This document shows, in pieces, positions 40,613 to 43,866 of a DNA stretch of 64,000 nucleotides; within the stretch, counting starts at the first letter, position 1; every line of letters starts with the position of its first letter. A program made the translations under genes and the position numbers. Source of the DNA: Dactylosporangium siamense (GTDB taxonomy: Bacteria; Actinomycetota; Actinomycetes; Mycobacteriales; Micromonosporaceae); NCBI RefSeq assembly GCF_016862795.1, contig NZ_BONQ01000038.1:1-64000 (forward strand), written 5' to 3'. The notes beneath the pieces were generated by a model. The model ran no database searches. It saw nothing but the letters and a program-made list of their open reading frames with translations, and was not told the DNA's origin.

Positions 40613-40617
40613 CCCAC

Positions 40618-40658
40618 AGCACGCGGCCCCACTCGCCAGCGGCGGGTGGGGCCGTGCT
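40618..40658. terminator. bidirectional hairpin terminator
   Basis: The left arm 40618-40637 and right arm 40641-40658 pair as AGCACG[CG]GCCCCACTCGCC with GGCGGGTGGGGCCGTGCT: 18 pairs with a two-base bulge, one G-T pair and a three-base loop. It fills the gap between the convergent PBP and arginase-family genes and reaches the latter's stop codon. Confidence 0.75.
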
Positions 40659-42973
40659 CATCGCTGCTTCGGTGTTCGCTCTTCGTCCGGTGTACGCGCG
40701 GCAGGCACCACATCCGTCAACGGCGACTCGGGCGGCTCCACAGGCTCACGGGGGGTCCGGCTCTGCGCCGGCACGAACGGCACGGCACCCTCCCGGTCCT
40801 GGCCGGGCGCGTCGTCCGCCGAGGCCGCGCGGCGGGCGAGGCGACCCGAGGCCGGCGGTCCGGAGGTCGGCGCGAGCGTCAACGCCAGCCGGGGCGCGCG
40901 GCGGCTCTTGCGCCCGGCCCGCCCGAACGGCAGCGCCCCGCCACCCTCCTCGGCGGCCGGCTCGGCGGCGGTGCCCTGGTCGGTGGGCCGGTCCAGGCCG
41001 GTGGACGGCTCACTCACCGCGTCCGGCCCGCCGACGGTGACCCAGCCGTCGTCCGCGGCGGGCGCCACGTCGTCGAGGTCGATCGGCTTGCGGGTGGTGA
41101 TACCGATCACAGCCCCGCGGCTGTACGCGGGAAGCCGGGGCGTCTCGGCCTGCCCCGCCCGACCGGTGCCCCGGTCCGCGGCGAGGTCGACCACCGCGCC
41201 GGTCCGCGTGTCGACCCAGGCGACGGGCGGCAGCTCCAGGTCATGATCCTCGGCGGCCTCGCCCGGCACGCCGGCGGAGGCATCGACCAACGACCCGGCG
41301 AGATCGGGGAACGCCGCCGGGTCATCCACCGGGTCATCCACCGGCTCGTCCTGCGGCTCACCCGGACGGCCGGCCATCGAGCCGTCAGCACCGCCGTCCG
41401 ACAGGTCGGCAGGAAGACCGGCCGCAGCCTCGGCGGGAAGGCCCGCCGCGTCGGCAGGAAGGCCCGCCGCGTCGGCGGGAAGGCCCGCCGCGTCGGCGGG
41501 AAGCTCGTCCGGATCGGTGGGAAGCTCGTCCGGATCGGCGGGCTCACCCTGCGAGGCGGCATCGGAGCCGGCCGCCGGATCGGTGACCTGGCCGGCCGGT
41601 TCGTCGCCGGCCGGACCAGCGGCCCATTCGGCGTCGGCACCGTCAGCGGGGTCACCGGTCGGGTGATCGACGGCATCGCCGGACGCCACGGCAGTCGCCT
41701 CGTCCGCCGGCCCGTCAGCCTCCTCGTCGGCCGGCTCGAACACCGGCGCGAAACCAAGCTCCGACACCGGCACGGGCTCCGACACCGGCGACGAGGCAGG
41801 CTCCGACACCGGCACGGGCTCCGACACCGGCGCGACGGCAGGCTCGGACACCGGCGCAACAACAAGCACCGGCACCGGCACCGGCACTTCCGGCACGGGC
41901 ACCGGCGCGACGGCAGGCACCGGCACGGGCTCGGACACCGGCATGGGCGTAAACCCCGGCGCACCGGCGGCCGGGGCGTGCAGCGGAGGCGCACCGGCGG
42001 GCGGGGCATGCAGCGGCGGGGCGGACACCACCGGGGTGAGGTCGGCGGCGGCCAGGGCGGAGGACGTCACGAGGGGCTCGAGGCCGGCGACGAGGACGTC
42101 GGTGACCTCCCGGGCGTACTGCCCGTCGGGGTCGTAGTCGGGGTCGAAGACGGTGACCTGGACACCCACGCAGCGAGGGTCGGACACCAGCCCGCTGAGC
42201 AGGATCTCCAGCTCCCGGTAGGCGATCCCGCCCACGTCGGGGGCGTCGACCGCCGGCATGACCGCCGGGTCGAGCACGTCGACGTCGACGTGGACCCAGA
42301 AGCCGGCGCAGTCGCGCAGCTGGTCGCGGGCCCACTGCGCGGAGCGGGCCGCGCCGTGGGAGCGCAGCTCCGGCACCGCGCGGGCGACGATGCCGGCCGC
42401 CTGCAGGTCGAGGCGGTATTCGTCGTGGGTGCGGATGCCGAGCAGGACGACGTCGACGTCGCGGAAGTAGGGCCGGCGCTGCTCGATCGAGGCGAGATTG
42501 CTCTGGCCGCGGCCGGTGGCCAGGGCCAGGGCCTCCCCGCCGGCGGCCCCGACATAGGACGCGTTGCCCTCGTGACGGAAGTCGGAATGCGCGTCGACGT
42601 AGACCAGGCCGACCCGGCCGGCGAGGTCGGCGGAGTACCGCCGCATCGCCAGGCCGGCGCCGAGCAGGATCGAGCAGTCGCCGCCGAGGACGACCGGGAA
42701 GTCGCCGGCGGCGAGGACGGCGCCGATCCGGTCGGCCAGCCGGCGGATGAACACCGCGATCTCGTCGGCCTGGGCGACGCCGTCGCCGGGCTGCCAGCCG
42801 GCCGGGTCGTAACGCGGCGGGGTGATGCACCCCGCGTCGCGGGCGCCCAGCCGGGCCAGCAGGCCGCTGTCGCGCAGGGCGCCGGGAGCTTTCGCGCAGC
42901 CGGGGACCGAGGTTGCGGTCGGTGGCCGCAACCCCAGGTTGCTCGGTGCGTCGACGACGGCGATCCGGCGCAT
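40658..42973 (-). CDS. arginase-family protein with long low-complexity C-terminal tail
   Basis: A 771-residue protein. Residues 1-310 are a ureohydrolase (arginase/agmatinase/formiminoglutamase) domain with the Mn-site motifs GGDCS (Cys100 in place of the usual His), D127-A-H129-S-D131 and H-V-D230-V-D232-V-L-D-P. Residues 313-771 are unlike any enzyme: Pro/Val/Ser/Glu repeats (VPVSEP), then acidic Pro/Ala repeats (LPADAAG, PDELPTD), and a final Arg/Pro-rich part. The frame is open throughout with no sign of a frameshift. The substrate is uncertain; Cys for His occurs in other arginase-fold proteins. It is the last gene of the permease-permease-ATPase-YbbN series, 11 bases after the YbbN stop. 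Confidence 0.83.
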   Translation of the reverse strand: MRRIAVVDAPSNLGLRPPTATSVPGCAKAPGALRDSGLLARLGARDAGCITPPRYDPAGWQPGDGVAQADEIAVFIRRLADRIGAVLAAGDFPVVLGGDCSILLGAGLAMRRYSADLAGRVGLVYVDAHSDFRHEGNASYVGAAGGEALALATGRGQSNLASIEQRRPYFRDVDVVLLGIRTHDEYRLDLQAAGIVARAVPELRSHGAARSAQWARDQLRDCAGFWVHVDVDVLDPAVMPAVDAPDVGGIAYRELEILLSGLVSDPRCVGVQVTVFDPDYDPDGQYAREVTDVLVAGLEPLVTSSALAAADLTPVVSAPPLHAPPAGAPPLHAPAAGAPGFTPMPVSEPVPVPAVAPVPVPEVPVPVPVLVVAPVSEPAVAPVSEPVPVSEPASSPVSEPVPVSELGFAPVFEPADEEADGPADEATAVASGDAVDHPTGDPADGADAEWAAGPAGDEPAGQVTDPAAGSDAASQGEPADPDELPTDPDELPADAAGLPADAAGLPADAAGLPAEAAAGLPADLSDGGADGSMAGRPGEPQDEPVDDPVDDPAAFPDLAGSLVDASAGVPGEAAEDHDLELPPVAWVDTRTGAVVDLAADRGTGRAGQAETPRLPAYSRGAVIGITTRKPIDLDDVAPAADDGWVTVGGPDAVSEPSTGLDRPTDQGTAAEPAAEEGGGALPFGRAGRKSRRAPRLALTLAPTSGPPASGRLARRAASADDAPGQDREGAVPFVPAQSRTPREPVEPPESPLTDVVPAARTPDEERTPKQR

Positions 42974-42984
42974 CCCGCCCCGGC

Positions 42985-43866
42985 TCAGAAGAGCGCGCTC
43001 GCCAGCGCCCGGCGGGCCTTGGCGACCGCGGGGTCGTCGGGCCCCGCGACGGTGAACAGCGAGACGAGGTGCTTGCGCACCGTCTCGCGTTCGTCGCCGG
43101 GGGTGCGGCGGACAAGGTCGATGAGGCGCTTGTAGGCGAGGTCGGCCTGGCCGGTCAGCACCTCGATGTCGGCGGCGAGCAGCTGGGAGGCGAGATCGTC
43201 CCCGGCCGCCGCCAGGACGGCCGCGGCGTCCAGCCCGGAGGTCCGGCGCAGCAGGGCGACCTGGGCGAGGCCGGACTCGGCGATCGGGTCCGCCGGCGTG
43301 TCGGCCAGGATCTGCTTGTATGCCACCTCGGCACCGTCGAGGTCGCCGTCCATCAGGGCGTCGTCGGCGGACAGCAGGCGCGGGTCGTCGCCGTGCTGGA
43401 CCTCGACGCCGGCGGCCTTGAGGACCGCGTCGATCCACTGGCGCAGGTGGGTCTCGGGCAGCATCTGGTTGAACGCGTCGACGGGCTGCCCGCCGACGAT
43501 CGCGACGACGAACGGGATGCCCTGGATGCGGAACATCTGGGCCAGCCGCGGGTTGGCCTCGATGTCGACGCGGCCGAGCAGCCAGGTGCCCTCACCGTCG
43601 CCGGCGAGCTTCTCCAGCAGTGGCGAGAACTGCTGGTGCGGCTGGCTGCCCTCGACGTAGAAGTCCAGGACGACCGGGGTGGTGACCGAACGCTGCAGGA
43701 CGGCGTCCTGGAAGTTGGTCTCGGTGGCATCGAACACGAACGCGGAGCTCGGCGCGGCGGCAGGCTGAGCAGATCGCTGCGCCGCGGCCTGATTGCTCCG
43801 GGCCAGGGCGCCGAGGTCCACCGCCCCGCGGGTGAAGATCGACTGGGTCTGCCTTGGGTCGCTCAT
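42985..43866 (-). CDS. thioredoxin-fold/TPR protein, YbbN (CnoX)-like, without CxxC
   Basis: A 293-residue protein with a thioredoxin-fold domain (about 43-150) and TPR-like helices after it (about 165-290). The region that normally holds WCxxC reads VEGSQPHQQF (S74-Q-P-H77), so it cannot do thiol redox chemistry. It keeps the fold features LLGRVDIEANPRLAQMFRIQ and GIPFVVAIVGGQPVDAF. YbbN/CnoX proteins act as chaperones or holdases. Four bases separate it from the ABC ATPase upstream and 11 from the arginase-family gene downstream, so it is translated with them. Start 43866 avoids an extension that overlaps the ATPase gene. Confidence 0.85.
   Translation of the reverse strand: MSDPRQTQSIFTRGAVDLGALARSNQAAAQRSAQPAAAPSSAFVFDATETNFQDAVLQRSVTTPVVLDFYVEGSQPHQQFSPLLEKLAGDGEGTWLLGRVDIEANPRLAQMFRIQGIPFVVAIVGGQPVDAFNQMLPETHLRQWIDAVLKAAGVEVQHGDDPRLLSADDALMDGDLDGAEVAYKQILADTPADPIAESGLAQVALLRRTSGLDAAAVLAAAGDDLASQLLAADIEVLTGQADLAYKRLIDLVRRTPGDERETVRKHLVSLFTVAGPDDPAVAKARRALASALF

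Follow-up and report, generated by a model that had tools for sequence, protein, structure and literature searches.

The results of this analysis, which covered a window of 64,000 nucleotides (the whole stretch of Dactylosporangium siamense DNA that was studied), lead us to propose that one of its genes encodes a non-canonical arginase-fold metalloenzyme with an altered substrate and a lineage-specific disordered tail, and that the motif at the end of this tail docks the enzyme; we consider this reading somewhat probable. The most likely arrangement is a tethered enzyme, in which the folded domain would be a metal hydrolase acting on something other than free arginine, the tail would be an elastic disordered spacer of loosely selected length, and the terminal motif would dock the enzyme on a putative partner. 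SSB and FtsZ both possess a fixed domain, a variable disordered spacer and a conserved terminal peptide, and the tailed enzyme resembles them in this layout, with no relation to them claimed. The tail is an intact in-frame extension kept across one Micromonosporaceae clade; its middle changes fast, also in length, and stronger constraint acts on the last 45-60 residues, which often carry short conserved motifs. The gene offers a clearly delimited example of an enzyme acquiring a disordered tail, the length of which then came to vary from 12 to 1055 residues with the tip more constrained, and about a hundred natural tail variants are at hand for comparison. The original prediction, an arginase-family enzyme fused to a low-complexity tail, is confirmed and strengthened as an observation, and its interpretation was half right.

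The 771-residue frame runs on the minus strand from an ATG at 42973 to a stop at 40658, according to the open reading frame list and its translation (Table 1). AlphaFold, supplied with a 48-row alignment, is confident from about residue 1 to 310, with a pLDDT of at least 90 at 241 residues, which agrees with the domain end first placed near residue 310. The frame does stay open beyond the domain, and since position 42037 is residue 313, the tail length of 459 residues first given is correct. Beyond residue 310, pLDDT falls to 26-48 in ten-residue blocks and nearly all residues lie below 50. Proline and alanine make up 36% of the tail, cysteine and asparagine are absent from it, and the low-complexity repeats noticed at the outset are indeed tandem units, with periods of 42, 24, 21 and 12-18 nt. 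The block PPVAWVDTRTGAVVDLAADRG..TTRKPID is well conserved in D. aurantiacum and not in the other five congeners. The basic end that had been described holds for a stretch from near residue 687 (GRKSRR) but not for the last 45 residues, which are the conserved part of the tail in the Dactylosporangium alignment and carry mixed charge.

Table 1. Positions of the gene, its parts and adjoining features in the window
Feature	Position	Strand	Basis or remark
Arginase-fold domain and disordered tail, whole gene, 771 aa	40658..42973	-	ORF, Pfam, AlphaFold
Arginase-fold domain, residues 1-300	42074..42973	-	PF00491, AlphaFold, fold match to 1cev
Cys100, first metal-ligand position	42674..42676	-	Cys in 48/48 and 101/101 aligned rows
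Low-complexity tail, residues 301-771, predicted disordered	40661..42073	-	pLDDT, composition, tandem repeats
VPVSEP-type repeats	41733..41943	-	Periods 42/24/18 nt
LPADAAG and DELPTDP repeats	41405..41542	-	Period 21 nt, 5.4 copies over 41430-41542
Block PPVAWVDTRTGAVVDLAADRG..TTRKPID, residues 582-632	41078..41230	-	Alignments
Conserved C-terminal block FVPAQ ... PPESPLTDVVPAARTP, residues 733-762	40688..40777	-	Alignment, 7/7 Dactylosporangium
YbbN/CnoX-like gene, thioredoxin fold and TPR_20, no CxxC	42985..43866	-	Directly upstream
Hairpin between two convergent genes	40616..40656		-32 kcal/mol, z -3.4

Distribution and evolution of the tail

A comparison of orthologues, which the original prediction had suggested, found both tailed and tail-less kinds. 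The tail is present in all seven Dactylosporangium genomes, D. siamense included. Among 176 relatives confirmed in genome contigs, the best 80 were retained as named loci and all have a tail of at least 35 residues (75 complete, 5 cut by an end), in a sample that consists of the closest relatives of the query and leans to tailed genes. Across 101 different family domains (tail complete in 96), the length beyond position 300 ranges from none to 1050 residues with a median of 177. When one genome was taken for each of 30 genera, the extension past position 300 was 20 residues or more in 24, 100 or more in 13 and 12 or fewer in six, a count in which L184 was measured with an over-long N-terminus; the tree analysis gives L184 28 residues. 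The family gene had no match in the same-family genome G031, which is 80% complete.

In a tree of 40 catalytic domains (32 family rows and 8 outgroup rows), the presence of the tail requires two changes. The tailed clade comprises 26 Micromonosporaceae rows from 24 genera, with support of 93/81, or 96/89 without its first branch, and none of its rows has a tail shorter than 12 residues. Its sister group, weakly supported (91/58), holds five tail-less family rows and the short-tailed L184, and the tail is absent from these five basal rows and from all eight outgroup rows. Outside the family, 19 of the 20 orthologues examined (L120-L139; 43-56% identical to the query by tblastn) are 295-323 residues long, and L137 has 369. 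One main gain of the tail with a separate change at L184 would be the simplest history; an earlier gain with later losses would need more steps and is not favoured. Genes with a stop near residue 300, once named as part of a finding that would speak against the tail, occur in 5 of the 30 family genera and in all 8 outgroup rows, and they mark the gain of the tail without refuting it.

The rates of change differ along the protein. The pN/pS of the domain is 0.01-0.23 across ten selected pairs; the middle of the tail gives 0.48-0.85 and its final 45-60 residues 0.15-0.62, with the C-terminal value below that of the middle in all ten, although the alignments of tail repeats are unsure and the constraint is modest between D. 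siamense and D. vinaceum (0.62). All seven Dactylosporangium tips align in a FVP[AS]Q + SP[LV]xDVVPAARTP block with small changes. The tails of Actinoplanes type have RPLG-APLLDS-PLPATRPGMLRPR in common (22 rows), several also carrying F[ST]LP[AV]QRP, and many Micromonospora tails carry EPVGPPASAGPGLLRR or a close form. The short lineage motifs often held by the tips include PGxLRR/PGMLRPR and hP[AV]Q(R). Of 101 tails, 57 contain the pattern [GRP]PG[LMRGS]LR[RP] (motif A), for which shuffled tails give a mean of 0.06 and a maximum of 1; the hP.Q type occurs in 34 (mean 2.0, maximum 7) and the P.RTP type in 13 (mean 3.2, maximum 8), counts that overstate independence, as the shuffling ignores relatedness. 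In 51 of the 57 tails with motif A, its final copy is 15-60 residues from the end; for the hP.Q type the distance is 10-60 residues in 29 of the 34. By genus (n=30), PGxLR[RP] is found in 8, a looser hP.Q form, given without a shuffle control, in 10, and either in 16. The protein thus has a disordered, length-variable spacer with a conserved terminal motif, although the motif is missing from some tails: 22 of 101 have none of the three patterns, four of these being cut and L020 carrying a related motif that the patterns miss.

These observations are also open to a neutral explanation, which we hold to be rather unlikely, namely that slippage at repeats in GC-rich DNA extended a tolerant C-terminus and that the motifs are functionless relics of common descent. 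The high pN/pS of the middle (0.48-0.85), the range of lengths from 12 to 1055 residues with many tandem repeats, and the genera with only 12-30 residues are what such drift would leave. Against it, every row of the 26-row clade (24 genera) has at least 12 extra residues and the tip shows higher conservation than the middle in 10/10 pairs. Neutral descent alone is disfavoured because a tail left to drift would not be spared at its tip. The docking of a tethered enzyme has its own difficulties, as some tails in the clade, at 12-30 residues, are too short for a tether, and the motifs differ between clades. In searches with two tips, no clear case of a tip motif in a second protein was found: the best match to the Dactylosporangium tip outside the gene had an E-value of 0.11 in 13 genomes, and the best outside match to the Actinoplanes-type tip was weak (E 0.0168) in 5 genomes. 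The latter lies in another long frame of a Spirilliplanes genome (G355:C42:43173-43286, L162).

Metal site and substrate residues

The folded domain has the three-layer fold of the arginase/ureohydrolase superfamily. Pfam PF00491 matches residues 4-290 (E 5e-31), the predicted domain superimposes on Bacillus caldovelox arginase 1cev with Z 39.0 over 291 residues (rmsd 2.5 Å), and the metal motifs DxHxD and DxD occur in 101/101 family members. Alignments to arginases bear out Cys100 as the replacement of the first metal-binding histidine, at a position that we take to be His101 in rat and human numbering. As an oddity of this one protein the cysteine does not stand: it is invariant in the subfamily (48/48 aligned rows, 101/101 family domains) and known from the enzymes zmARG and DcsB. 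The canonical histidine of GGDHS is absent from all 101, each of them retains the full set of six metal-ligand positions with cysteine at the first, and in the wider alignment this cysteine goes with a H-[IV]-D-x-D motif (His228 in 46/48). In ten of the 48 aligned rows, all from outside Micromonosporaceae (L121-L126, L131-L134), the second metal-ligand histidine is replaced by serine (six) or falls in a gap (four), and their metal site may differ from that of the family. The D. siamense genome also holds a second Cys-type arginase-fold paralogue (G000:C29:35408-36247, L004), with GGDCS, 295 residues, no tail and about 40-44% identity.

The positions involved in substrate binding have changed. 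Alignments that include 2eiv and 1cev place Ala or Gly at the catalytic His141 position of arginase and Val or Ile at the guanidinium-binding Glu277 position in all 101 family domains; in the wider 48-row alignment the latter position has V or I in 45 rows, with D in two others and C in the remaining one. Two canonical paralogues of the same genome (L001, L002) retain the glutamate. The 1cev and Thermus thermophilus 2eiv enzymes share the fold and the Asp/His metal motifs, but differ from the tailed protein in having His as first ligand, equivalents of both His141 and Glu277, and chains of 291-299 residues. Closer in its metal site is 6lug, which we take to be DcsB, an N-omega-hydroxy-L-arginine amidinohydrolase; aligned to the relative L146, it has the first-ligand cysteine, Gly at the His141 position and the W-x-H-I-D-x-D motif. 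Unlike the tailed protein, DcsB keeps glutamate at the Glu277 position (LAELNAP), where the family has V/I in 101/101, and its solved chain is 281 residues long. According to the available part of its description, zmARG, a dimeric arginase of Zymomonas mobilis in which Cys92 binds the first zinc, resembles the tailed protein in its arginase fold, first-ligand cysteine (GGDCL), DSHPD and HIDLDVLDP motifs and two metals, a comparison that covers the first-ligand cysteine and the metal motifs; that part describes a protruding C-terminal helix and no long tail (PMC6988801).

Could the protein be a true arginase or guanidine hydrolase to which a localisation tail was added? Its best sequence and fold matches are arginases, and zmARG, with the same cysteine, is reported to be active on arginine with Mn (PMC6988801). 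We nevertheless judge this improbable, as the equivalents of Glu277 and His141 are lost in 101/101 domains and the scores fall far under the NCBIfam equivalog cut-offs (arginase 94, cut-off 228; hutG 68, cut-off 229; agmatinase 48, cut-off 174). Glu277 interacts with the guanidinium group in arginase (PMC9224512). "Arginase" is probably the wrong function label for the tailed protein, because the His141 and Glu277 positions are changed with the metal ligands kept. The cysteine ligand being already known, this combination would be the more telling feature. Of the original assignment to the arginase family, the fold stands and the ureohydrolase role is doubtful. We infer that the enzyme is an active two-metal hydrolase whose substrate is not free arginine, a view favoured because a dead enzyme would hardly retain every ligand. 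The subfamily scores as arginase by Pfam without the key substrate residues, and another activity may await assay.

Another role for the tip, which seems to us very unlikely, is that it enters the protein's own arginase-like site in cis, as a substrate or autoinhibitory pseudo-substrate, with the Arg-bearing ends (PGxLRR, PGMLRPR, PAQRP, PAARTP) reaching back on the flexible spacer. Peptide arginases act on Arg residues within peptides (PMC12703449), and were the tip such a ligand, the protein would be a self-modifying relative of theirs. The missing Glu277 would count against guanidine hydrolysis here too. A limited literature search found no paper on a disordered C-terminal extension in the arginase family, on CnoX/YbbN with arginase, or on a bacterial disordered linker length with a conserved C-terminal motif, and none joining arginase with Dactylosporangium, Actinoplanes arginase with intrinsic disorder, or DcsB with cycloserine and hydroxyurea.

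Reading frame and gene neighbourhood

That the tail might arise from a frameshift, an assembly error or a stop near residue 310 falsely read through has next to no probability, and for the D. siamense gene it is refuted by its congeners: tail-less orthologues exist and two Phytohabitans tails end unlike their relatives, but seven Dactylosporangium genomes keep the frame and have the conserved C-terminal block in common, and third-position GC stays high (0.854 in the tail, 0.957 in the domain). The tail frame has no stop in 7/7 of these genomes, compared with 1-11 in each shifted sense frame. The two Phytohabitans genes (L067, L073; the end is Arg/Pro/Ser-rich in L067) are themselves perhaps frameshifted, in the assembly or in the gene. 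Six in-frame GTGs inside the tail have some Shine-Dalgarno-like letters upstream. The best candidate for an internal ribosome start, GTG731 with GGAGG, the only one of the six compared between genomes, was rejected since GGAGG is absent from the six other Dactylosporangium genes. An 829-residue antisense frame crosses the gene on the plus strand; it was rejected as a real gene, as antisense frames have 0-7 stops over the seven Dactylosporangium tails and none is stop-free in all seven. No RNA family reached its gathering score in the window, and no tRNA was found there.

The order first described, ABC permease, ABC ATPase, YbbN-like and arginase-like gene, is correct for D. siamense, where 11 nt separate the ybbN stop from the start of the arginase-like gene. 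The YbbN-like protein is probably not redox active, judging from its sequence. As a general setting, the ABC exporter fits Dactylosporangium, where an ABC ATPase match lies directly upstream in the six named loci, and few others: it lies about 8 kb upstream in L067, L072, L073 and L093, L027 and L032 likewise have it upstream, and no match was found ahead of the gene in the other 70 named loci, several of which are cut. The exporter is therefore not the general context, and the constant neighbour is the YbbN-like gene, directly upstream in 81/81 loci (D. siamense and the 80 named) at a gap of 9-138 nt (median 33). If the terminal motif did bind YbbN or another partner, this would account for the preservation of the two genes as a pair throughout the family. 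Their adjacency by itself says nothing about binding of YbbN by the tail, because a ybbN match likewise precedes the gene in the basal loci L182, L183, L185 (at a distance of about 340 nt) and L186, which have no tail; we rejected the inference of binding, as the ybbN neighbour predates the tail. No ybbN match was found upstream of the basal L184, counted there as tail-less, or within about 1.5 kb of L120-L146 outside the family.

On the downstream side, 68 of the 80 named loci have a convergent penicillin-binding protein gene; it is reversed in two others, and in the remaining 10, some of which are cut, none was found. In L038 (Dactylosporangium sp. AC04546) and L039 (D. sucinum), the downstream PBP and GDH genes are reversed relative to D. 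siamense. The hairpin at 40616-40656 is probably a two-way terminator shared by the convergent genes.
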